Positions 52,330 through 64,000 of a DNA stretch of 64,000 nucleotides are shown one piece after another. The notes under the pieces are model-generated. The model searched no databases and was not told where the DNA came from. It saw nothing but the letters and a program-made list of their open reading frames with translations. Every line of letters starts with the position of its first letter. Positions within the stretch are counted from its first letter, which is position 1. Origin of the DNA: Alexandriicola marinus (lineage in GTDB: Bacteria > Pseudomonadota > Alphaproteobacteria > Rhodobacterales > Rhodobacteraceae); contig NZ_RBVZ01000004.1 in the NCBI RefSeq assembly GCF_004000435.1, positions 62,001 to 126,000 on the forward strand. Reading direction: 5' to 3'. A program made the position numbers and the translations under genes.

Positions 52330-53253
52330 TCAGCTGCTCTTCAGGAGCGCCTCGATCTCGGATCGGGCGGGCATCGACGGCGCGGTCCCCGGACGGGTGA
52401 CCGAGATAGCAGCCGTGGCGCAGCCAAATCGCACGGCCTCGAGCGGCTTCATGCCCTCGGCCAAGGCGACCGAGAACCCGCCGTTGAAGGCGTCGCCCGC
52501 GCCCGTCGTCTCGACCACGGGGCCCGCTGACATGGCGGGCACCAGTTCCGCGGTCTCGCCGTCGTCGTAATAGGCGCCCCGCTCGCCCAGGGTGATGATC
52601 GGGGCCGAAACGCCGCGTTCGCGGAACCGTGCGGCGGCAGCGGCGGCATCGTCCAGCGTCTTGACCGTGACGCCCACGATGCCCTCGGCCTCGGTCTCGT
52701 TCGGCGTGACGAATTCGCAGAGTTCCAGCATGGATTGCGGCACCTGTGCCGCCGGCGCCGGGTTCAGGATCGTGCGCGCACCGCCTTGCCGGGCGATCCC
52801 GAGCGCGCGTTCCGCCGCGTCCATCGGTTGCTCGAGTTGCGTGACAAAGACCGCGGCCCCGCCGATCAGCGCGGCCTGCGCCTCGACATCGGCCACAGAG
52901 ATCCGGGCCGCCGCACCCGGAGAGATGATGATCGCGTTGTCGCCAGAGGCTTCTTCGATGAAGATATAGGCCGCCCCGGTATAGCTGTCGGGATCGTCGG
53001 TGACGACGGGCGTCACGCCCGCCTCCTCCCAGGTCTTGCGCGCCATGATAGCGAAATCGTCCATGCCGAGGCGGGTGACGAAATGGACATTTCCGCCCGC
53101 GCGCGCGGCCGCGACGGACTGGTTCGACCCCTTGCCACCGGGCCCGAGGACGAAACTGTTGCCCATGATCGTCTCGCCCATCCGGGGCTGACGCTCGGCG
53201 CGATAGGCGGTGTCGGCGACGAAGACGCCGAGGATCACGATGTCGGTTCTCAT
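52330..53253 (-). CDS. rbsK: Ribokinase-family (PfkB) sugar kinase
   Basis: The 307-residue PfkB kinase shows ribokinase segments: GPGGKGSNQSVAAARAGG, NPAPAAQVP and the ATP/anion hole TTGAGDAFNGGFSVALAEG with the catalytic Asp. GGAGGACC precedes ATG 53253. It is last in the minus unit behind RbsD/FucU and the ABC ATPase. Ribokinase activity is likely, but the context leaves room for a different sugar, so the symbol is provisional. Confidence 0.88.
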   Translation of the reverse strand: MRTDIVILGVFVADTAYRAERQPRMGETIMGNSFVLGPGGKGSNQSVAAARAGGNVHFVTRLGMDDFAIMARKTWEEAGVTPVVTDDPDSYTGAAYIFIEEASGDNAIIISPGAAARISVADVEAQAALIGGAAVFVTQLEQPMDAAERALGIARQGGARTILNPAPAAQVPQSMLELCEFVTPNETEAEGIVGVTVKTLDDAAAAAARFRERGVSAPIITLGERGAYYDDGETAELVPAMSAGPVVETTGAGDAFNGGFSVALAEGMKPLEAVRFGCATAAISVTRPGTAPSMPARSEIEALLKSS

Positions 53254-53287
53254 GAGGTCCTCCGATAGATCAGCCACGCGCGGTGGT

Positions 53288-53318: not shown

Positions 53319-53771
53319 TCAAGCGTCGGGTGGGATGACGCCTTTGCGCAACATGAAACAGCCATAAAAGCGGCGCTCGCCGCTCTGGATCACGGCATAG
53401 GCCTCCTTGGCCATATCGTAGAAGGCAAACCGTTCGACGCCGATCATCGGCCGCGGCGCGCCTTCGGCGGCATCGATGGCCGCCTGAACTTCGGCCTGCA
53501 CCGGCGGGATCGTGTCGGGTTCCCCGACGATCTCCATCCGGGCCGCGAAATCATCGACGAACGTGTCGAGGGGCAGCACCGACAGGATCGCGCCGACCGT
53601 TTCTCCGGCAGTGAGGTTCTCCATCCGCAAGAGCTTTCCATGGACCGTCTGTTTCGCGATCGAATCGGCCGGAAAATTCGTGTCCGACACGATCAGCATA
53701 TCGCCATGTCCCATCGCCCGGAGCACGTGCAGCACATCCGCGTTGAGCCTGTTGTCGATCCCCTTGAGCAT
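53319..53771 (-). CDS. RbsD/FucU family sugar mutarotase
   Basis: The 150-residue protein begins MLKGIDNRLNADVLHVLRAMGHGDMLIVSDTNFPA, with the catalytic His of the HGD motif, and ends RRFYGCFMLRKGVI, closer to FucU than RbsD. It interconverts anomers of ribose or fucose-type sugars. GGAGGGCCC precedes the ATG. It lies between the ABC ATPase and the ribokinase genes on the same strand. Confidence 0.92.
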   Translation of the reverse strand: MLKGIDNRLNADVLHVLRAMGHGDMLIVSDTNFPADSIAKQTVHGKLLRMENLTAGETVGAILSVLPLDTFVDDFAARMEIVGEPDTIPPVQAEVQAAIDAAEGAPRPMIGVERFAFYDMAKEAYAVIQSGERRFYGCFMLRKGVIPPDA

Positions 53772-53808
53772 GGGGCCCTCCTCCCTCGTTGATGAACCTG
53801 TCGGCGCC

Positions 53809-54867
53809 CTAGTTGATCCTTTGTCCACTCTCGCGGTCGAAAAGATGCAGGTGTTCGGGCGCGGATGAGACCGTCAGCGTCTGACCGACCGAGAAATTCT
53901 GCCGATCCTTGAGAAGCATCGTCAGATCGGCACCGTCGTGGCGCAGCAGGATATGGGTCTCGGACCCGGTCGGCTCGATGACGCTCACCTCTGTCGAAAG
54001 GCCCCGCTCGGACAGGACGAGATGCTCGGGCCGGATGCCAAGCCGGATCGGTCGCCCTTCCTCGAGCCCCGGTCCGGGCACCAGATCGAAGGCCACGTCG
54101 CCCACCGTCGCGCTCTTGCCGTCCGGGCCGATCACCGCATCGAGCGTGTTCATCGCGGGGCTGCCGATGAAGCCTGCGACAAAGGTGTTGGCGGGCCGGT
54201 CATAGACGTCGAGGGGGGCACCGATCTGTTCGATATGGCCGCCCTGCATGACGACGATCTTGTCGGCCATGGTCATCGCTTCGATCTGGTCATGGGTGAC
54301 GTAGATCGTGGTCGTCGACAGACGCTGATGCAATTCGCGGATCTCGGTGCGCATCTGCACGCGCAGCTTCGCGTCCAGATTCGAGAGAGGCTCATCGAAC
54401 AGGAAGACCTGCGGATCGCGCACGATCGCCCGACCCATCGCGACGCGCTGGCGCTGACCGCCCGAGAGCGCACGGGGATACCGGTCGAGATAGGGCGTCA
54501 GGCCAAGAACCTCGGCGGCCTTGTCGACGCGCGCGGCGATTTCGTCCTTGGCCATCTTCCGCATCCTGAGGCTGAAGGCCATGTTGGCGCGCACGGTCTT
54601 GTGCGGATAAAGCGCATAGTTCTGGAACACCATCGCGATGTCCCGCTCGGCGGGCGGCAGGTTGTTGACCAGCCGGTCGCCGATATGAATCGTGCCCGAG
54701 GTCACGCCCTCAAGACCCGCAACCATACGCAGCAAGGTCGATTTGCCACAGCCTGACGGGCCGACCAGCACGACGAATTCGCCATCGGCAATATCCACGT
54801 CCAGCCCGTGCAAAACCTCGAGATTGCCGTAATTCTTGCGAAGTGCGCGAACCTTGACCTCGGACAT
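53809..54867 (-). CDS. Sugar ABC transporter ATP-binding protein (MalK/UgpC type)
   Basis: The 352-residue ATPase has Walker A GPSGCGKST (37-45), Q-loop FQNYALYPHKTV, signature LSGGQRQRV, Walker B VFLFDEPLSNLDAKLR and the switch His in YVTHDQIEAMTM. The C-terminal TOBE regulatory domain (about 240-352) marks it as a CUT1-type subunit. It is the first gene of the minus unit and is divergent from the binding protein, and so likely energises the two permeases. Confidence 0.95.
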   Translation of the reverse strand: MSEVKVRALRKNYGNLEVLHGLDVDIADGEFVVLVGPSGCGKSTLLRMVAGLEGVTSGTIHIGDRLVNNLPPAERDIAMVFQNYALYPHKTVRANMAFSLRMRKMAKDEIAARVDKAAEVLGLTPYLDRYPRALSGGQRQRVAMGRAIVRDPQVFLFDEPLSNLDAKLRVQMRTEIRELHQRLSTTTIYVTHDQIEAMTMADKIVVMQGGHIEQIGAPLDVYDRPANTFVAGFIGSPAMNTLDAVIGPDGKSATVGDVAFDLVPGPGLEEGRPIRLGIRPEHLVLSERGLSTEVSVIEPTGSETHILLRHDGADLTMLLKDRQNFSVGQTLTVSSAPEHLHLFDRESGQRIN

Positions 54868-54954: not shown

Positions 54955-55129
54955 AAACTTGACTCGTGTCACCGGCGCTGTGATGCTCTGACCTGTCAGC
55001 ATGATCGGAGCGGAGCCTGGGGCATAGAGGATGCAGCGGGCGACGGGGCAGGAAACCGAGGTCAGGAATATCGCCCCGTCCTGCCGTGAATGCCTTTCCG
55101 CTGACCGGAGTCTATAGGGAGGATTGTCC

Positions 55130-56758
55130 GTGAAAACAGAACTTTACAACATGGTGGCCCGTTCAAGAGTGAACCGGCGCAGGCTGCTGCAAGGCGCCGC
55201 GAGCGCGGGCGCACTGGCCGCGATGGGGGCCCGTCCGGCCATGGCCGAGGCGCATGGGTCGGTGCGTGCCGAAATTCTCAAGATCCCCGGCGTGGGCATG
55301 GGATCGCCCACCGATGCCGATTGGCAGAAAGTCGGCGAGCTGTGCCTCGGGCCGACCAAGGAACGCGTCGCCGAGGGCGAATTCGCGGGCGTCGAGCTGA
55401 CCTTCATGGGTCTCAACAACCAGAACCTGCACAACTTCCTGTTCCGCGGCTTCCTGAAGCCATGGGAGGCCTATACCGGCGCCACGATCAACTGGATCGA
55501 CCTGGCCCAGGCCGATTACAACGCCCGCCTGCAGCAGTCGATCGCCACGGGCACCGTCGACTTCGACATCATCGAGATGGGCGCTCCCTTCGAAGGTGAC
55601 ACCGCAGGACGCGGCCTTTTGGACGAGATGCCCGAATGGGTGAAGGAGCAGATCGAGGCCGATGACCTCGTGGGATACCTTCAGCCGCCCGTCGGCACCT
55701 GGGACGGCAAGACCTACCGGATCACCATCGACGGCGACTGCCACACCTTCGCCTACCGGACCGATTATTTCGGCGAGGGCGCGATCGGAGGGCCAAAGGT
55801 GCCCAGCACCTGGCAGGAGGTCAACGCGGCCTCGCTGGCCCTGAAAGGCCAGACAGACCCGCTGACCGGCCTTGATGCCCATGGCTTCCTCGATCCGCTG
55901 AAGTATCAGTGGGGCGGCTTCGGCTTCTACTTCCTTGCCGACCGCGCGTCGTCCTATGTCAAGCATCCCGACAGCCCCGCGTGGCTGTTCGAGCCCGAAA
56001 CCATGAAGCCCATGGTCAACAACCCGGGCTGGGTGCAGGCGATCCAGGACGTCTTCGATCTGGTCGCGGCCGATGCCTACCCGGCCGATCAGGTCAACGC
56101 GGACCCCAACACCACCGCCTTCAGCCAGTTCCTTGCCGGAACCGGCTCGATGCTGACGTGGTGGGGCGACGTGGGCTCGAACGCACGCACCTCCGACAGC
56201 TCTGTCGTGGGCGATGTCGTCGGCTTCGGCATCAACCCCGGATCGGAGCGGCGCTTCAACGCGGCGACCGCGTCGTGGGAAGACGAGATGAACGAAGCGC
56301 CGGTCATGTCCTACATCGGCTGGGGCATCTACGTCACCTCGCGGGTGTCGGGCGACGACCTCAAGCGCAAGGCCGCCTGGTCGGCCGCGGCGCATCTGGG
56401 CGGCAAGGACCTGTCGCTCTGGACGTCGGCCTATCCGTCGGGCTTCCAGCCCTACCGCAACTCCCACTTCCAGTACGAAGAGTGGGAAGAGGCTGGCTAC
56501 GACCGGGCCTTCGTCGAGGATTATCTCGGGTCCAACGTCGACAGCTACAACCACCCCAACGCCGCGATCGAACCGCGTATCCCCGGCATCTTCCAGTACT
56601 ACTCGATCGCCGAGGACGAACTGGTCAAGGGGATCAACGGCCAGTACGGCTCGGCGCAGGAAACCGCCGATGCCATCGCCGCCGCCTGGGAGGATATCAC
56701 CGACCAGATCGGCCGCGAGAGCCAGATCGCGCTCTACAAGGCGTCGCTGGGCATGTAA
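55130..56758 (+). CDS. Sugar ABC transporter substrate-binding protein, Tat-type signal
   Basis: The 542-residue protein has an N-terminal twin-arginine-type signal (SRVNRRRLLQGAASAGALAAMGA, ending AMA-EAH). The mature domain is an extracellular solute-binding family 1 fold with Trp/Tyr-rich carbohydrate contacts (WDGKTYRITIDGDCHTFAYRTDYFG, WGGFGFYFLADR). At about 500 mature residues it is longer than most CUT1 binding proteins. GTG 55130 is chosen for the GGGAGG site seven bases upstream. It heads the plus unit with the two permeases. Confidence 0.9.
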   Translation: MKTELYNMVARSRVNRRRLLQGAASAGALAAMGARPAMAEAHGSVRAEILKIPGVGMGSPTDADWQKVGELCLGPTKERVAEGEFAGVELTFMGLNNQNLHNFLFRGFLKPWEAYTGATINWIDLAQADYNARLQQSIATGTVDFDIIEMGAPFEGDTAGRGLLDEMPEWVKEQIEADDLVGYLQPPVGTWDGKTYRITIDGDCHTFAYRTDYFGEGAIGGPKVPSTWQEVNAASLALKGQTDPLTGLDAHGFLDPLKYQWGGFGFYFLADRASSYVKHPDSPAWLFEPETMKPMVNNPGWVQAIQDVFDLVAADAYPADQVNADPNTTAFSQFLAGTGSMLTWWGDVGSNARTSDSSVVGDVVGFGINPGSERRFNAATASWEDEMNEAPVMSYIGWGIYVTSRVSGDDLKRKAAWSAAAHLGGKDLSLWTSAYPSGFQPYRNSHFQYEEWEEAGYDRAFVEDYLGSNVDSYNHPNAAIEPRIPGIFQYYSIAEDELVKGINGQYGSAQETADAIAAAWEDITDQIGRESQIALYKASLGM

Positions 56759-56793
56759 CCTGAACCGCGCGGACCTTCTGGCCCGCGCAACCA

Positions 56794-56824
56794 TGGCCCG
56801 CCCCGAAACGGGCGGGCCACTTTT
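56794..56824 (+). terminator. Attenuating hairpin between binding protein and first permease genes
   Basis: A 10-bp stem (TGGCCCGCCC / GGGCGGGCCA), loop CGAAAC, is followed one base later by TTTT. Partial termination here would give more binding protein than permease, a usual arrangement. Confidence 0.7.
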
Positions 56825-56850
56825 GACCGCAGGACAGGCAAGACCGGGGC

Positions 56851-57960
56851 ATGAGCACCTCTGAAGGCGATCTCCTCCATGTCGTCACCGCCGACGACAT
56901 TTCCGACGGACGGCGCAAGCTGGGCACCACGGTCATCTGGGGGTCCTTCGCGATTCTCGTGATCGTCGCGGCCCTGCAATGGGCCGATGCCAATGGCCGG
57001 GCCGATTTCGGCTTCACCTCGTGGCGGCCGACCCTCTATGCCTTCTGCCTGTGGTCGGTGGGCCTGTGCTGGGGCCAGGTCCTGCGCTTTGGCGAATATG
57101 GCAAACGCACGCTTTTCGTCCTACCCGCCGCACTCTTCGTGGGGGCGATGGTCGTCTTTCCGCTGATCTTCGGCGTCGGAATCGCGCTGTCGGACTGGAA
57201 CCTGTCCTCCCCGGACGGCCGGCAATTCAACGGCACCGACAATATTGTCGAGATGTGGAACGATCCGTTCTACTGGAACGCACTGAAGAACATGGTCTGG
57301 TACGTTCTGGCGATCTTGCCGGAATATGCGATCGCGTTCGGGCTCGCGGTGCTGCTGAACGCCCAGATCCGGGCGCGCAAGTTCTTTCGGGTCGCTTTCC
57401 TTCTGCCGCTGATGCTGTCGCCCGTGGCGGTGTCGTGGATGATCGGCAAATCCATGCTCGAGGTGCGCTTCGGGCCGATCGCACGGTTCTTCCGCTCCCT
57501 CGGGGTCGAGGATGTGGCCTTCTTCTCTTCGCCCGAGATGGCGCGCTTCATGATCATGGCGATGGATGCCTGGACCTTCATCCCTTTCATGATGATCATG
57601 ATTCTCGCCGGCCTACAGGCCATTCCGAAAGAGCTGAACGAGGCCGCCCGCGTCGATGGCGCGGGCCCGTGGCGCGGCTTCTGGGAGGTGACCTTCCCGC
57701 TGATGCTACCCGTCTCGATCACCGCGATCCTGATCCGCATCATCTTCAAGCTCAAGCTGGCCGATATCGTCATCAACGTGACCTCGGGCGGCCCCGGCGG
57801 CGCGACCGACACCGTGACGTCTTTCATCTTCCGCGAATATCGCGACCGATCCAACGTGGGCTACGGCACGCTTCTGGCGATGGTCTACCTCGTCATCATC
57901 GTCATCTTCATGACGATCCTGATGAAGGTGTCCGAACGCTGGACCCGGCCCCGCACATGA
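56851..57960 (+). CDS. Sugar ABC transporter permease (CUT1, MalF-like)
   Basis: The 369-residue permease has the EAA loop NEAARVDGAGPWRGFWEVTFPLM for contact with the ATPase. The typical family start LFVLPAALFVGAMVVFPLIFGVGIALSDWNL appears only at about residue 89; before it lie two extra hydrophobic segments (about 29-47 and 62-80), giving around eight helices. It starts 92 bp after the binding protein gene, behind an attenuator. Confidence 0.92.
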   Translation: MSTSEGDLLHVVTADDISDGRRKLGTTVIWGSFAILVIVAALQWADANGRADFGFTSWRPTLYAFCLWSVGLCWGQVLRFGEYGKRTLFVLPAALFVGAMVVFPLIFGVGIALSDWNLSSPDGRQFNGTDNIVEMWNDPFYWNALKNMVWYVLAILPEYAIAFGLAVLLNAQIRARKFFRVAFLLPLMLSPVAVSWMIGKSMLEVRFGPIARFFRSLGVEDVAFFSSPEMARFMIMAMDAWTFIPFMMIMILAGLQAIPKELNEAARVDGAGPWRGFWEVTFPLMLPVSITAILIRIIFKLKLADIVINVTSGGPGGATDTVTSFIFREYRDRSNVGYGTLLAMVYLVIIVIFMTILMKVSERWTRPRT

Positions 57961-57969
57961 GGCGCATCG

Positions 57970-58887
57970 ATGTCTGAGCAAATCTTTCACGACAGCCCCG
58001 CAGATGCCGGCCACCGCGCCAAGTGGTGGAGCTCGCGGATAGCGATCTACACAATCCTGATCTTCTGGGCGATCATCTGCCTCTTTCCGATCTTCTGGAC
58101 GATCACGACATCGTTCAAACGCGCTCCCGACGTGATGCAGGGCAATATCATCCCGTGGCTCGATTTCGCCCCGAACTGGCTGGGCTGGCGGTCGCTGGGC
58201 CTGTCGCCCGACACGATCGGCACGGAAAGCACGGTGCGGGCCGAGTTCATGAAACGGTTCCTGAACTCCACCATCATCGCGCTGTCGGCCTCGACGCTGG
58301 CCGTCGTGCTGGGCAGCCTCGCGGCCTATGGGCTCTCGCGGTTCTCCTACCGGTTCGGGCCGATGAAGAATTCGGATATCTCCTTCTTCTTTCTCAGCCA
58401 GCTGATCCTGCCGCCCGTCGTGCTCGCCCTGCCGTTCCTCGTGCTCTACAAATCCCTGGCGCTCCTCGATACCCGCATCGGGTTGATCATGCTCTATACG
58501 CTGACGGTCTTGCCCATCGTGATCTGGATCATGCGCGACCAGTTCTCTTCGATCCCGACCGAGCTGGAAGAGGCGGCCCTTGTCGACGGCCTGTCGATCT
58601 GGGGGGCGTTCGTGACGATCATCCTGCCGATCGCGCTTCCGGGGATGGTCGCGGCCTTCATCCTGAGCCTTGTGCTGACGTGGAACGAATATTTCTTCGC
58701 CGCGCTTCTGACCTCGACCAACGCGGTCACCCTGCCGGTGATGGTGGCAAGCCAGACCGGAAGTCAGGGGATCAACTGGTGGTCGATGGCGGCCCTCAGC
58801 TTTGCAGCGATCCTGCCGCTGATCGTGATCGGCATCGTGCTCGAACGCTTCATCATCAAGGGCATGGCCGCGGGCGCGGTGAAGTAG
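57970..58887 (+). CDS. Sugar ABC transporter permease (CUT1, MalG-like)
   Basis: The 305-residue permease has six predicted helices and the EAA loop EEAALVDGLSIWGAFVTIILPIALPG. The start WWSSRIAIYTILIFWAIICLFPIFWTITTSFK and the end IVIGIVLERFIIKGMAAGAVK are typical MalG-like ends. It begins 9 bp after the first permease and closes the plus unit; the SIS isomerase gene on the other strand ends 33 bp beyond. Confidence 0.94.
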   Translation: MSEQIFHDSPADAGHRAKWWSSRIAIYTILIFWAIICLFPIFWTITTSFKRAPDVMQGNIIPWLDFAPNWLGWRSLGLSPDTIGTESTVRAEFMKRFLNSTIIALSASTLAVVLGSLAAYGLSRFSYRFGPMKNSDISFFFLSQLILPPVVLALPFLVLYKSLALLDTRIGLIMLYTLTVLPIVIWIMRDQFSSIPTELEEAALVDGLSIWGAFVTIILPIALPGMVAAFILSLVLTWNEYFFAALLTSTNAVTLPVMVASQTGSQGINWWSMAALSFAAILPLIVIGIVLERFIIKGMAAGAVK

Positions 58888-58920: not shown

Positions 58921-59472
58921 TCACTCGAGGTTGGTGTGGCGGGTTTCCATCTCGGCACTCGTGACGCCCAGCCGCGCGCGCAGGTCATGGATCATGACCT
59001 CGAACAGGACGAACATCGCCCCTTCGAAGACCGATCCCATGGGCAGGACGCCTTCGGTCTCGCCCGGCGCCCGCGCCATGGTCCGTGCCGGCAGAACGAG
59101 GAACTGATCGACCAGTGCCGCGGGCGCGCGGTCAGGTTCCGCCGTCAGCAGAAGCGTGCGGGCGCCCGCCGCGCGCGCCTTGCCCAGTAGCGCCGTTACC
59201 GTTGCCAGCTCCCCCGGTCCGGCCGAGGCCAGAAACAGGTCTCCGGGTCCGACCGGCGGGCAGGCCATGTCCCCCTGCATCGCGACCGACAGCCCCAGAT
59301 GGTGCAATCGCATGACAAATCCGCGCAGCTGCACCCCTTCACGCCCGCAGCCATAGCCCACGACCACGCCTGCCCCGGCGATCAACGCGCAGGCGGCCTC
59401 GACCTGCGCATCATCGAGGCCCTCGAGCCCCGCGCCGATCTCGGCCAGCGCATTGGCATACTCAGATCTCAT
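58921..59472 (-). CDS. SIS-domain sugar isomerase (HxlB-like)
   Basis: The 183-residue protein is a single SIS domain: AGAGVVVGYGCGREGVQLRGFVMRLHHLGLSVAMQGDMACPPVGPGDLFLASAGPGE, then TLLLTAEPDRAPA and MGSVFEGAMFVLFEVMIHDLRARLG. The length and ending are those of 6-phospho-3-hexuloisomerases. No hexulose-phosphate synthase is adjacent, so it may act on another sugar phosphate. Its start overlaps the FGGY kinase stop by four bases. Confidence 0.85.
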   Translation of the reverse strand: MRSEYANALAEIGAGLEGLDDAQVEAACALIAGAGVVVGYGCGREGVQLRGFVMRLHHLGLSVAMQGDMACPPVGPGDLFLASAGPGELATVTALLGKARAAGARTLLLTAEPDRAPAALVDQFLVLPARTMARAPGETEGVLPMGSVFEGAMFVLFEVMIHDLRARLGVTSAEMETRHTNLE

Positions 59473-60956
59473 GAAAGGTCCGCCATGATATCCTTGGTCT
59501 GGAGATAGAGACGTTTGAACAGATCGTGCTGGCCTTCGAGGGCGGCGCCGGGATCGGGCTCGACCTGTTGCGTCACCGGGTTCCACCTGTCGATATCGCC
59601 CCGCTCGGCGAGGCCTGCCGCGCAGGCGGCAAGGAAGGCATTGCCATAGCTGGCACCGATCGACTTCTCGCGCAGGATCTGAGGCACCTTGCCGATATCG
59701 GACGTGGCCTGAAGCCAGATCGCATTCTGCGTCCCGCCGCCCACGGCCAGAACGCGTGTCGGCGCCTGTCCGATCTCTCCATAGGTTTCGATCACATGCG
59801 CCGTGCCGTGGGCGATCCCTTCAAGAAGGGCGCGATACATGTCGCCGCGGGTATGGGTCAGGTTCAGACCAAAGAAGGTGCCCTTGGCCCTCGGGTCATG
59901 GATCGGGGTCCGCTCGCCCGAGAAATAGGGCAGGAACAGGATGCCGTTGGCGCCTGCCGGTGTGTCGGCGGCTTCGCGCGCGAGGTCGGGAAAGGCCGTC
60001 TCGCGCGGCAATTCGCGGGCGAATTGATCGCGAAACCAATGGGTCAGCGTGCCCGAAGTGGCCAGCCCCGCCATCGAGGCATGCTCCCCTTCGAATAGCC
60101 ACGGCGCATACCACAGCCGCGGATCGGTGACGCGGCCCGACACGGCCTGAATGATGAAGATGGTCGAGCCATACATCATCATCATGTCGCCCGGACGGGT
60201 CAGGCCCACACTGACCGCCTCGGCCGCCGCATCGATCGTCCCGCAGGTGACGGGCGTGCCGGGGGCAAGGCCTGTTTCGGCGGCCGCCTCGGGCGTGACG
60301 GTTCCCGCGATCTCGGACGACCACATCAGGCGCGGCAGCTTGTCCAGCGCGATGATGTCGGAGGCAAGGGCGTCGGTCCAGTCCTGCCGGTCGACATCGT
60401 AAAGCGGGGAGAAGTTGGCCGCCGTGTAATGATCGATCACCTTCTCGCCGGTCAGGCGAAAGGTCAGAAAGCTCGTGGAGGTGAAGATCGCCTCGGTCCG
60501 GTCGAAAAGCTCGGGGTGGTTCCGTTTGAGCCAGAGGATCTTCGGCCCCACCGATTGCGATGTCAGGGCGTTGCCGCAGGTGGCGAGGATCGTCTCTTCG
60601 CCGATGCGGTCGGTCAGTTCGGTGATCTCGGCTTCGGCGCGGGTATCAACGCCGTAAAGAACGCCGTTCATCAGGGGCCGTCCCTGCCCGTCCACGGGCA
60701 ACATGCAGGGTCCGATGGCCGAAGTTGCGACGCAGGCGATCTCGGTCGGGTCGATGCCCGACCCTGCGAGCAGGTCCCGTGTCACCTGAACGAAATCGCC
60801 CCACCAATCCTCCTCGGCGCGGTGCTCGGCCCAGCCGGGCCGGGGCACGATCATCTCGTGATCGCGCCGCGCCACGGCCACGACGCGGCCCTTGTCATCC
60901 ACCAGCACACCCTTTGTCTGGTAGGTCCCGATATCGACGCCGAGCGTATAGGTCAT
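59469..60956 (-). CDS. FGGY-family carbohydrate kinase
   Basis: The 495-residue kinase begins LGVDIGTYQTKGVLVDDKGRVVA and has TCGTIDAAAEAVSVG, LFLPYFSGERTPIHDP and RVLAVGGGTQNAIWLQATSDI. This is the ketose/polyol kinase fold, closest in look to xylulokinase- and fuculokinase-like members. The substrate is not readable. It overlaps the genes on both sides by four bases, in a tight unit with SIS isomerase, M42 and BtpA genes. Confidence 0.92.
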   Translation of the reverse strand: MTYTLGVDIGTYQTKGVLVDDKGRVVAVARRDHEMIVPRPGWAEHRAEEDWWGDFVQVTRDLLAGSGIDPTEIACVATSAIGPCMLPVDGQGRPLMNGVLYGVDTRAEAEITELTDRIGEETILATCGNALTSQSVGPKILWLKRNHPELFDRTEAIFTSTSFLTFRLTGEKVIDHYTAANFSPLYDVDRQDWTDALASDIIALDKLPRLMWSSEIAGTVTPEAAAETGLAPGTPVTCGTIDAAAEAVSVGLTRPGDMMMMYGSTIFIIQAVSGRVTDPRLWYAPWLFEGEHASMAGLATSGTLTHWFRDQFARELPRETAFPDLAREAADTPAGANGILFLPYFSGERTPIHDPRAKGTFFGLNLTHTRGDMYRALLEGIAHGTAHVIETYGEIGQAPTRVLAVGGGTQNAIWLQATSDIGKVPQILREKSIGASYGNAFLAACAAGLAERGDIDRWNPVTQQVEPDPGAALEGQHDLFKRLYLQTKDIMADLS

Positions 60957-62155
60957 GGCTGATTCTCCTCCGTGGAGGAGCCGGGCGGGAGGACCAGAGG
61001 GTCTTCTGCTGGCATCTCCGGTGCCGGTGGCTCGGCCGCGACGGGGGCCGCCGGGGCATCGGCCGGATCACGGCCAAGGTCGAATTGGGCATCGAGCCGC
61101 TGCACGGCGGCCTGCAGAAGCCGGGCCAGGCTTTCCAGATCACGAAGATCGCAGACCTCGAGCGCCGAATGCGAGGCGCGCATCGGAAAGCCCACGTCGA
61201 TGGAGATGACCCCCTCGCCCACAAGCTGCACATAGGACAGGTCCGTCAGGACGCCCACTTGCGCCGAACGTTGCAGGGGCAGCCCTTCACCCGCTGCCGC
61301 CTCTTCGATCAGACGCACGGCGGCAGGGTGCGGTATCACGCCGTTGAGCGTGCCACGCCCGTGGAACGAATAGAGGCTCATCCCGGGCCCGCCGCCCAGA
61401 ACCATCTCGCCCCGGTCGGCCATGTCGGGCGTGTCGGTCGCCAGCATCAGGTCGATCTGGATGGCCACATCGGGTTTCAGCCGTTGCGCCGCCACCTGAG
61501 CGCCGCGCAGGTTGAATTCCTCGAGCACCGAAAAGACGATATGCACCGTCGGCCCGCCCTCCCGGTTGCGCAGCGCGCGGGCCAGCGCCATCAGAACCGC
61601 ACAGCCCGCGCGATCGTCTATGGCCGTCCCGGCCAGTCGGGTATCGGCAAGGGGCAGGACCTGCGGCAGATAGATCACGGGCGCGCCGATCCGGATGCCC
61701 GCAGCCTCGACCGCCGCTCTGGAGCCGTGGCCCGTGTCGATCACGATCTCGGGCGCCTTGACGACGCGGTATTTCTCTTCGGGTGTCGTGGCGTGATGGG
61801 CCTTGTTGAGGATCACCCCGGGCACATCGCGCCCTTCGCCCACGCAGACCAGCACCGCCTGCGCCGCCATCGCGCGTTCCGCCACGCCCCCCATCCGCTC
61901 GACCCGCAAGAGGCCGTCGGGTTCGATCCGGCGGACGATGAAGCCCAGCTGATCCATATGGGCAAAGACCATGACGGATGGGGCCGCGGGATCGCCCGGG
62001 AACGTCACGGTGAAATTGCCCAGCCGGTCGGTCTCGCCGGTGATGCCGTCGCGGGCAAGCTGCGCCGCGATGTGCCGGCGAACCCGATCCTCGTGGCCCG
62101 CAAGGCCCGGGATGCACATCAGTTGCGATAGGTCCTCCTCCAGACGATCCAGCAT
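60953..62155 (-). CDS. M42-family metallopeptidase homolog (FrvX/SgcX-like)
   Basis: The 400-residue protein has the M42 metal and catalytic pattern: VFAHMDQLGFIV (His66, Asp68), TAIDDRAGCAVL, VFSVLEEFNLRGAQVA with the catalytic Glu pair, and a late ISIDVGFPMRASHSALEV. Family members are aminopeptidases or cellulase-like hydrolases of unknown substrate; in E. coli, FrvX and SgcX lie in sugar operons. A Pro/Ala/Glu-rich tail (about 365-400) is unusual. Coupled to BtpA (one-base overlap). Confidence 0.88.
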   Translation of the reverse strand: MLDRLEEDLSQLMCIPGLAGHEDRVRRHIAAQLARDGITGETDRLGNFTVTFPGDPAAPSVMVFAHMDQLGFIVRRIEPDGLLRVERMGGVAERAMAAQAVLVCVGEGRDVPGVILNKAHHATTPEEKYRVVKAPEIVIDTGHGSRAAVEAAGIRIGAPVIYLPQVLPLADTRLAGTAIDDRAGCAVLMALARALRNREGGPTVHIVFSVLEEFNLRGAQVAAQRLKPDVAIQIDLMLATDTPDMADRGEMVLGGGPGMSLYSFHGRGTLNGVIPHPAAVRLIEEAAAGEGLPLQRSAQVGVLTDLSYVQLVGEGVISIDVGFPMRASHSALEVCDLRDLESLARLLQAAVQRLDAQFDLGRDPADAPAAPVAAEPPAPEMPAEDPLVLPPGSSTEENQP

Positions 62156-62967
62156 CACTTGCCACCCCGTGCCGTGCGAACGAGGCTCATGAATTCGACG
62201 GCCCGGTCCGGGTCGATCGCGTTCCAGGTATGGCCATCGACCTTGAGCGCCGAACCCACGACGCAACCGTCCGCGATCGCCAGAACATCCGCCACGGTCT
62301 CGTGCTTGACGCCGGTATTCGCCATCACGGGCACGCTCGTGACCGCGCGTTTGACGGCCTCGAGATCCTCCATCCGGGCGGCCTCCCCGGTGATCTGGCC
62401 CGAGACGAGCACCGCGTCGGGGATCGAGGAAAAGACGGCCGAGCGCGCCCGGTCGGCCAGCGGCCGCTGATCGAGCGAATGGGCGAATTCGGCGGATACG
62501 TTATAGAGCATCGCCACGTCCTTCGCGCCCAGCCGGTTGCGATAACGCATCGCGGCGCCGGCATCGGGCGTCCATGGCCCCATGTCCGAGGCATAGGTGC
62601 CGGTAAAGATTTCGCGCACGAAAGAGGCGCCCGTGGCGGCCGCAAGCGCGATGGTCGACATCGGATCCCACAGCACGTTGACCCCGAACGGCACCGTGAT
62701 CTCGGAGCGCAGGGTGCCGATGATCGAGGCCATGGTCGCGGTCGAGGCGGTATCGACCTGAAACTCATAGGGCCGGTCGTTTTCGTTGCCGAACATCACC
62801 GCGTCGAACCCCGCCGCCTGAAGGGCGGCGAGATCGCGGCGCGCCCCGTCGAGAAGCCCCTCGATCCCCGCCTCCGGGTCAAAAAGGGGGCTGCCCGGCA
62901 GCGCCCCGATATGGACCATGCCGATCACGGGCTTTGCCGTGCCGAAAATCTCGTTGAACCGTTCCAT
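62155..62967 (-). CDS. BtpA/SgcQ family protein
   Basis: The 270-residue TIM-barrel-like protein begins KPVIGMVHIGALPGSPLFD, the BtpA signature, and has DAVMFGNENDRPYEF and a C-terminal TVADVLAIADGCVVGSALKVDG, which looks like a phosphate-binding loop. BtpA was named for photosystem I biogenesis in cyanobacteria, but its relatives in heterotrophs such as SgcQ sit in sugar operons. An enzymatic role on a phosphosugar is likely but unproven. It is the first gene of the four-gene minus unit. Confidence 0.9.
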   Translation of the reverse strand: MERFNEIFGTAKPVIGMVHIGALPGSPLFDPEAGIEGLLDGARRDLAALQAAGFDAVMFGNENDRPYEFQVDTASTATMASIIGTLRSEITVPFGVNVLWDPMSTIALAAATGASFVREIFTGTYASDMGPWTPDAGAAMRYRNRLGAKDVAMLYNVSAEFAHSLDQRPLADRARSAVFSSIPDAVLVSGQITGEAARMEDLEAVKRAVTSVPVMANTGVKHETVADVLAIADGCVVGSALKVDGHTWNAIDPDRAVEFMSLVRTARGGK

Positions 62968-63069: not shown

Positions 63070-64000
63070 ATGGAAATCAGACGCCGACATTGGGACAGGC
63101 ATGGCACGGGCGGGCTGAGCTTTACCGAACTGGGCTTTGGCACCGCACCGCTGGGCAATCTCTACCGCGCGATTTCGGACGACGAGGCCGATGCGATCCT
63201 CGCCCGCGCGTGGGACGCAGGCATCCGCTATTTTGACACCGCGCCGCTTTACGGGCTGGGCCTGTCCGAGACGCGGCTGAACCGGTTCCTGCGCGACAAG
63301 CCGCGCGACGACTACGTGCTGTCGACCAAGGTGGGCCGCATCCTCAGGGCCACCAGCCCCGACAAGCGCGACGGGTTCGGCAAGTGGTTCGACGTGCCCG
63401 CCCGCAACGAGGTCTATGATTATGGCTATGACGCGGTCATGCGCAGCCTCGAATTCTCGCTCGAGCGGCTGGGGACACATCGGGTCGATATCCTCTATGG
63501 CCACGATCTGGATCTGACCAACCACGGCAGCCGCGACGCGCTGGACGCGCGGATGACGGAATTCCTCGAAGGCGGGCATGAGGCGCTGGTCAAGCTGCGC
63601 TCCGAAGGGGTGATCGGCGCCTTCGGCCTTGGCGTGAACGAATGGCAGCCCTGCAAATGGCTGGCCGAACGAGGCGATCCGGACATCTTCCTTCTGGCGG
63701 GGCGCTATACGCTTCTGGAACAGGCCTCGCTTGATACGATGATGCCCCTGTGCGTGGAAAAGGGCATCGGCGTCGTGATCGGCGGGCCCTACAATTCGGG
63801 CATTCTTGCCACCGGGCCGCGACCGGGCGCCTATTACAACTACGACCCCGCTCCGCAGGAGGTGCTCGATCGCGTCGCAAAGATCGAGGCGGCCTGCACC
63901 CGGCACGGGGTTCGTCTTGTGGATGCCGCTTTCCAGTTCCCGCTTCGTCATCCGGCGGTCGTTTCGATCATTCCCGGTGGTCAGTCGGTCGACGAGATGG
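63070..64000 (+). CDS. Aldo/keto reductase, L-fucose/D-threo-aldose dehydrogenase type (3' end beyond window)
   Basis: About 310 residues are visible. The N-terminus has LSFTELGFGTAPLGNLYRAI and RYFDTAPLYGLGLSETRL with the catalytic Asp and Tyr, LSTKVGR with Lys, and DILYGHDLD with His. The long insert RDGFGKWFDVPARNEVYDYGYD is typical of the D-threo-aldose 1-dehydrogenase (L-fucose dehydrogenase) group. GGAGGGAGGA precedes the ATG. The frame runs off the right edge. It is divergent from BtpA and shares the operator-like motif with the transporter promoters. Confidence 0.9.
   Translation, partial: MEIRRRHWDRHGTGGLSFTELGFGTAPLGNLYRAISDDEADAILARAWDAGIRYFDTAPLYGLGLSETRLNRFLRDKPRDDYVLSTKVGRILRATSPDKRDGFGKWFDVPARNEVYDYGYDAVMRSLEFSLERLGTHRVDILYGHDLDLTNHGSRDALDARMTEFLEGGHEALVKLRSEGVIGAFGLGVNEWQPCKWLAERGDPDIFLLAGRYTLLEQASLDTMMPLCVEKGIGVVIGGPYNSGILATGPRPGAYYNYDPAPQEVLDRVAKIEAACTRHGVRLVDAAFQFPLRHPAVVSIIPGGQSVDEM

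Follow-up and report, generated by a model that had tools for sequence, protein, structure and literature searches.

An SgcX-type M42 hydrolase and a BtpA family protein in a conserved alphaproteobacterial cluster: the possible core of an undescribed sugar-conjugate pathway

The sgcXBCQAER operon of Escherichia coli encodes an M42 protein (SgcX), a BtpA family protein (SgcQ), the PTS components IIABC and SgcE, contents that agree with the parallel drawn in the original prediction for the locus described here, and it is still without an assigned function (PMC13343008, 2026). Deletion of sgcC or sgcX produced no growth phenotype on 190 carbon sources, and the operon was induced on nitrogen-containing carbon sources (PMC13343008). 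Given that the deletions caused no growth defect, E. coli may be a poor choice of organism in which to seek an sgc phenotype. In cyanobacteria, BtpA is reported to interact with glutamyl-tRNA reductase (GluTR) and to stabilise it (review PMC11449065). The protein families, and sgc as a related operon, are already known. BtpA and SgcX have long been without an assigned role, in E. coli K-12 included; our literature search found no paper assigning a reaction to the bacterial sugar-linked BtpA or SgcX forms, and nothing useful on BtpA together with M42 or FGGY, or on BtpA family models. The FGGY family paper mentions neither BtpA nor M42.

The window analysed here is a 64,000-nucleotide stretch of the Alexandriicola marinus genome, in which genes for a BtpA family protein, an M42 metallohydrolase, an FGGY carbohydrate kinase and a SIS isomerase follow one another on the minus strand (Table 1). 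The overlap of the four genes predicted at 58921-62967 was borne out when the junctions were read directly: the BtpA stop and the M42 start form TGATG, and both the M42/FGGY and the FGGY/SIS junctions read ATGA. A CUT1 importer (55124-58887) is encoded on the opposite strand, convergent with this unit, and on its far side lie the genes of an ABC ATPase, a FucU-type mutarotase and a near-ribokinase PfkB protein. The model of the importer's binding protein (pLDDT 73.6) gave Foldseek matches to many sugar-binding proteins, with no single ligand singled out. The divergent aldo/keto reductase (AKR) gene starts about 100 bases upstream of BtpA and is followed, past the end of the window, by genes for a lactonase-like amidohydrolase (L085), a second PfkB protein, a xylose-isomerase-like protein and a GntR regulator. 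The wider conserved set consists of ATPase-FucU-PfkB on one flank and of AKR-lactonase and PfkB-isomerase-GntR on the other. Much of it is seen again in relatives from the Rhodobacterales and Rhizobiales, so that the four genes make up the core of a larger cluster, some 15 kb long.

Table 1. Features of the locus, in coordinates of the 64,000-nucleotide window
Feature	Position	Strand	Evidence
PfkB kinase, near-ribokinase	52330..53277	-	TIGR02152 296.4 vs cut-off 299.65
RbsD/FucU mutarotase, closer to FucU than RbsD	53319..53828	-	PF05025 4e-34; conserved near cluster
ABC ATPase, UgpC/MalK type	53809..54867	-	NF008653 516 bits vs cut-off 432; conserved near cluster
CUT1 solute-binding protein, MalE fold	55124..56758	+	PF13416/PF01547; Foldseek matches to oligosaccharide-binding proteins
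ABC permease, MalF/UgpA-like	56851..57960	+	PF00528
ABC permease, MalG-like	57970..58887	+	PF00528
SIS isomerase, HxlB-like, optional member	58921..59472	-	TIGR03127 120 bits, cut-off 160
FGGY carbohydrate kinase, XylB-like, below xylulokinase cut-off	59469..60956	-	PF00370/PF02782; TIGR01312 292 vs 380 bits
M42 metallohydrolase, SgcX type, metal ligands kept	60953..62155	-	PF05343 3e-70; clade with SgcX
M42 signature loop FHGRGTLNG, codons	61340..61366	-	77/77 window-type M42
BtpA/SgcQ family protein of 270 aa, predicted to be a TIM barrel of the phosphate-binding type	62155..62967	-	PF03437 1e-76
Aldo/keto reductase (AKR), divergent from BtpA, extends beyond window end	63070..64000	+	AKR match in 41/80 BtpA relatives

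Gene order was compared in 80 loci retrieved through BtpA, all of them from close relatives (70-85% BtpA identity). Among these close relatives, M42 follows BtpA in 76 of the 77 loci with room for it, the exception being L025, from which M42 is missing, and FGGY comes next in 71 of 74 informative loci. Only 12 of 70 loci have SIS after FGGY, and SIS is therefore an optional part outside the conserved core, although the original prediction had counted the isomerase as a member of the set. A creatininase-family gene occupies or shares the same slot in 15 of 70 loci (e.g. L004, 13375-14118); both genes are present in 5 and neither in 48. The SIS protein, which falls below the 6-phospho-3-hexuloisomerase cut-off, matches YckF-type structures, and membership of the RuMP pathway was set aside on account of that score and of the gene's position outside the core.

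Several relatives show particular arrangements. In Nitratireductor (L063, L069, L074 and L082), RbsABC-type transport genes and DhaK/DhaL-like kinase genes stand beside BtpA-M42-FGGY. In four Rhodobacter relatives (L018, L024, L058 and L066) the cluster is adjoined by galactarate-dehydratase-like, SDR and 2,4-diketo-deoxy-acid hydrolase genes, which represent a route of the L-fucose or L-rhamnose type. Two contigs labelled Mycobacterium and Chloroflexi (L050 and L073) carry the alphaproteobacterial cluster at high identity, reflecting either mis-labelling or transfer.

The association of the two families was then assessed in two even samples, one from the phylum of the window (299 genomes) and one from its class (318 genomes), in which both families were searched, a BtpA gene being counted at E <= 1e-15 and an M42 gene as its neighbour within 3 kb. 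The samples together contain 29 distinct BtpA genes, five of which adjoin M42, against about 0.017 expected by chance, so that the co-occurrence check set by the original prediction came out far beyond chance. The linked cases are this genome, three others with window-like clusters (G262, G197 and G548) and one with an sgc operon (G258). As the four alphaproteobacterial cases have a common origin, it is safer to count two lineages, and this conservative figure is still at about 1e-4. The proposed recurrence of the pair with different transporters also held, CUT1 ABC, RbsABC-type ABC and PTS systems all being seen with it. However, no M42 gene was seen next to 24 of the 29 sampled BtpA genes; what recurs is the M42 subfamily, whereas BtpA usually occurs without M42 and has a kinase or a PTS as its regular partner.

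The window M42 protein belongs to peptidase family M42 (PF05343, 237 bits against a cut-off of 23). A tree built from 42 M42 proteins places the window type together with SgcX on one branch (support 98/99), outside which fall FrvX, YpdE and the second M42 protein of this genome. The loop [FY]HGRGTLxG is invariant in all 77 aligned window-type M42 proteins that reach it and takes the form YHGRGTLAG in SgcX, while the metal-ligand residues are conserved in 76-78 of 78 aligned copies. We define the SgcX-type subgroup by a place in the clade of SgcX together with this loop, and the window protein has both. The GRGTL loop is present in every sampled BtpA-adjacent M42 (G000, G258, G262, G197 and G548) and in that of G445, whose window-type cluster ends at a contig end. 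It is absent from all 40 other sampled M42 loci, including the second copy of this genome, and likewise from E. coli FrvX and YpdE. Judged by tree and motif, the BtpA-linked M42 proteins are a distinct subfamily common to the window type and SgcX, and among the sampled genomes the M42 branch with this private loop was found only beside BtpA/SgcQ. This association of a motif with a neighbouring gene adds evidence that the original prediction did not contain. A Deinococcus M42 protein, weakly placed inside or near the SgcX branch, has neither the loop nor a BtpA neighbour; its gene (L128, 8986-10095) has NlpC/P60 and dipeptide epimerase genes as neighbours, a setting that points to recycling of murein peptides.

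The window BtpA passes the family cut-offs (PF03437, 258 against 30 bits; TIGR00259, 255 against 153 bits). A sequence search for a solved BtpA structure returned only tryptophan-synthase-like noise. Foldseek searches with an AF2 model (pLDDT 87.7) matched PdxJ, ThiE, HisF, RPE, KDPG aldolase and TrpA, all phosphate-binding barrels, with E values of 5e-8 to 1e-6, TM scores of 0.53-0.61 by query length and identities of 12-18% at best. BtpA is thus a predicted ribulose-phosphate-binding TIM barrel, the likeness lying at the level of the barrel and leaving the reaction unfixed. Residues such as K12, H19, N61, R168 and G219 are kept in 47 of 47 diverse homologs. A phosphorylating system was detected in 23 of the 29 sampled BtpA neighbourhoods (FGGY in 17, PfkB in 5, PTS in 1) and not in the remaining six, one of which ends at a contig end. 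The steady partner of BtpA is a phosphorylating step, not M42.

In the BtpA tree, SgcQ is closest to BtpA proteins encoded next to a PIG-L deacetylase, and the window type is closest to the Thermus BtpA, which adjoins FGGY and SDR. Forcing the M42-linked BtpA proteins into one clade was 218 log units worse (p-AU 2e-52). The window type and SgcX share one M42 subfamily, but the BtpA proteins linked to it come from different lineages. Taken as a whole, the earlier interpretation is partly supported: the linkage and the variety of transporters stand, the M42 proteins concerned are a subfamily shared with SgcX, and the suggested action of M42 ahead of BtpA is plausible, whereas SIS is optional and the M42-linked BtpA proteins do not form one clade. 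In Sinorhizobium and Phyllobacterium (L089 and L130), an SgcQ-like BtpA has a PIG-L deacetylase in place of M42, accompanied by a xylose-isomerase-like protein, a Gfo/Idh dehydrogenase and an alpha/beta hydrolase. A distant BtpA clade (~30% identity) belongs to another conserved cluster (L095, L096, L119, L121, L122 and L125), in the order RbsABC, phosphotriesterase-like, GATase1_like, PfkB and BtpA, then M20/ArgE or TenA.

The window FGGY kinase matches both family domains (FGGY_N/C, 2e-47/3e-30), fails the xylulokinase cut-off and lies apart from E. coli XylB in the tree. The M42-linked kinases, including that of the window, form one clade, and the SDR-linked kinases form a separate sister clade. 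Of the 13 sampled loci in which FGGY occurs without M42, 8 clearly have an adjacent SDR gene, as do 4 of 4 plasmid loci. In Shinella and Thermus, a window-like BtpA is combined with the SDR-type FGGY. The type of FGGY follows the M42 or SDR partner, and BtpA is swapped between the two contexts. On the simplest reading, M42 and SDR would stand in for each other as entry enzymes, each paired with a kinase of its own, and feed one kind of BtpA reaction; two entry routes delivering one type of BtpA substrate would be expected to give both the split FGGY clades and the crossing of BtpA between them.

We tentatively propose, with somewhat less than even confidence, that these genes form the centre of a so far undescribed route for the catabolism of a conjugated sugar or polyol derivative, running from import through FGGY and M42 to BtpA. 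The position and conservation of the ABC importer suggest that it would take up the conjugate, which the FGGY kinase, in keeping with its family function, would phosphorylate, the exact substrate being conjectural. The SgcX-type M42 would then split the phosphorylated conjugate by hydrolysis, at an amide bond or one like it. The ketose phosphate so formed may undergo a BtpA-catalysed step of the enolisation type, namely, epimerisation, isomerisation or retro-aldol cleavage, and SIS, where present, would take the product on to central metabolism. The E. coli sgc system would use the same M42 and BtpA enzymes, with PTS import replacing the kinase and the ABC importer. Because PTS substrates enter the cell phosphorylated, the M42 step is most simply placed after phosphorylation, an order that assumes the same function for SgcX and the window M42 at 37% identity. 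The proposed reactions draw on gene order, overlap, conservation, subfamily, motif, predicted fold and kinase linkage.

The substrate is probably an N-acyl or aminoacyl conjugate. This is a guess, made because amidohydrolase families (M42, PIG-L and creatininase) recur and because sgc is induced on nitrogen-containing carbon sources (PMC13343008). PIG-L, found near SgcQ relatives, and creatininase, found in the SIS slot, are both metal-dependent amidohydrolase families. The N-acyl idea is confined to the branches with M42 or PIG-L; no amide hydrolase accompanies the main FGGY-SDR-BtpA lineage, and an amide hydrolase as the companion of all BtpA proteins was accordingly dropped.

Other explanations could account for parts of these observations. 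The M42 protein could be a cytosolic aminopeptidase of the ordinary kind: it would trim glycopeptides or glycated peptides after their import and ahead of phosphorylation, and the sugar released would pass to FGGY and BtpA. The solved M42 relatives are named aminopeptidases, the metal ligands of the window protein are intact, and the E. coli M42 genes frvX and ypdE also adjoin PTS genes; but the BtpA-linked proteins form a clade of their own whose invariant loop is private to it, the importer is of the CUT1 sugar type, and in the PTS version the substrate is already phosphorylated on entry, which makes this explanation unlikely. It is decidedly improbable that M42, with the creatininase found nearby in relatives, acts as a C-C or lactone hydrolase on an AKR-oxidised sugar in an L-fucose-like oxidative route. 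Such an acid route would leave FGGY, SIS and BtpA superfluous, and the sgc operon has no such oxidoreductase, even though AKR and L-fuconolactonase-like genes adjoin the cluster in many relatives and a FucU-type mutarotase is part of it. A creatininase-family ring hydrolase that takes part in inositol breakdown in Thermotoga also speaks for this route.

The remaining alternatives concern BtpA and its tie to M42. Two or more separate pathways may share one catabolic island, BtpA-FGGY being one of them and M42 carried along by ancestry. The many sampled BtpA loci without M42 (24/29) and the variability of SIS, AKR and other genes among relatives would fit; translational overlap, a near-invariant order (76/77) and the joining of the same M42 subfamily to SgcQ in enterobacteria render it quite improbable. 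BtpA might also be a non-enzymatic stabiliser or regulator of the kinase, M42 or transporter, resembling the cyanobacterial relative that binds and stabilises GluTR (PMC11449065), and its exchange between contexts would agree with this. We regard this as rather improbable in view of the predicted phosphate-binding-type barrel with its residues invariant across the 47 homologs, and of the steady linkage of BtpA to sugar kinases.

It is possible, although we would not put it at even chances, that the SgcX-type M42 proteins represent a novel hydrolase class, specific for phosphorylated sugar conjugates and not for peptides, and the non-cyanobacterial BtpA proteins a new sugar-phosphate enzyme family, together serving one pathway common to alphaproteobacteria and sgc. 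There is a fair chance that the cluster leads to a so far undescribed pathway. Three things are new here: the cluster conserved among alphaproteobacteria, the signature of the SgcX-type M42 together with its linkage to BtpA, and the interchange of M42 and SDR next to BtpA. With the loop signature, the linkage to kinases and the discordant trees, a vague "predicted sugar operon" is sharpened into specific predictions, namely, a phosphorylated ligand for BtpA and a phosphorylated conjugate for M42, and the ligand of the importer is open to screening in organisms in which the operon is not cryptic but widespread.

Compared with known systems, the window BtpA shares PF03437 with cyanobacterial BtpA, but it reaches only 172 bits on the cyanobacterial equivalog NF045918 (cut-off 400) and has no photosystem context. 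BtpA is predicted to have the barrel fold of RPE, KDPG aldolase, ThiE and TrpA, at 12-18% identity at best. The M42 aminopeptidases FrvX, YpdE and TET have the family and the metal ligands in common with the window M42, but lack the FHGRGTLxG loop, and none was found beside BtpA. The window and the E. coli sgc operon both encode a BtpA family protein and an M42 of one clade that carries the GRGTL loop. However, the window cluster is not an sgc operon: sgc combines these with PTS IIABC import and the SgcE epimerase, in place of which the window has an ABC importer, FGGY and SIS, and SgcQ belongs to another BtpA clade, next to PIG-L-linked proteins. The DeoR-BtpA-FGGY-SDR-ABC clusters of Rhizobium and Thermus resemble the window in combining BtpA with an FGGY kinase and a CUT1 importer, but they carry an SDR where the window has M42, and their FGGY kinases form the sister clade.
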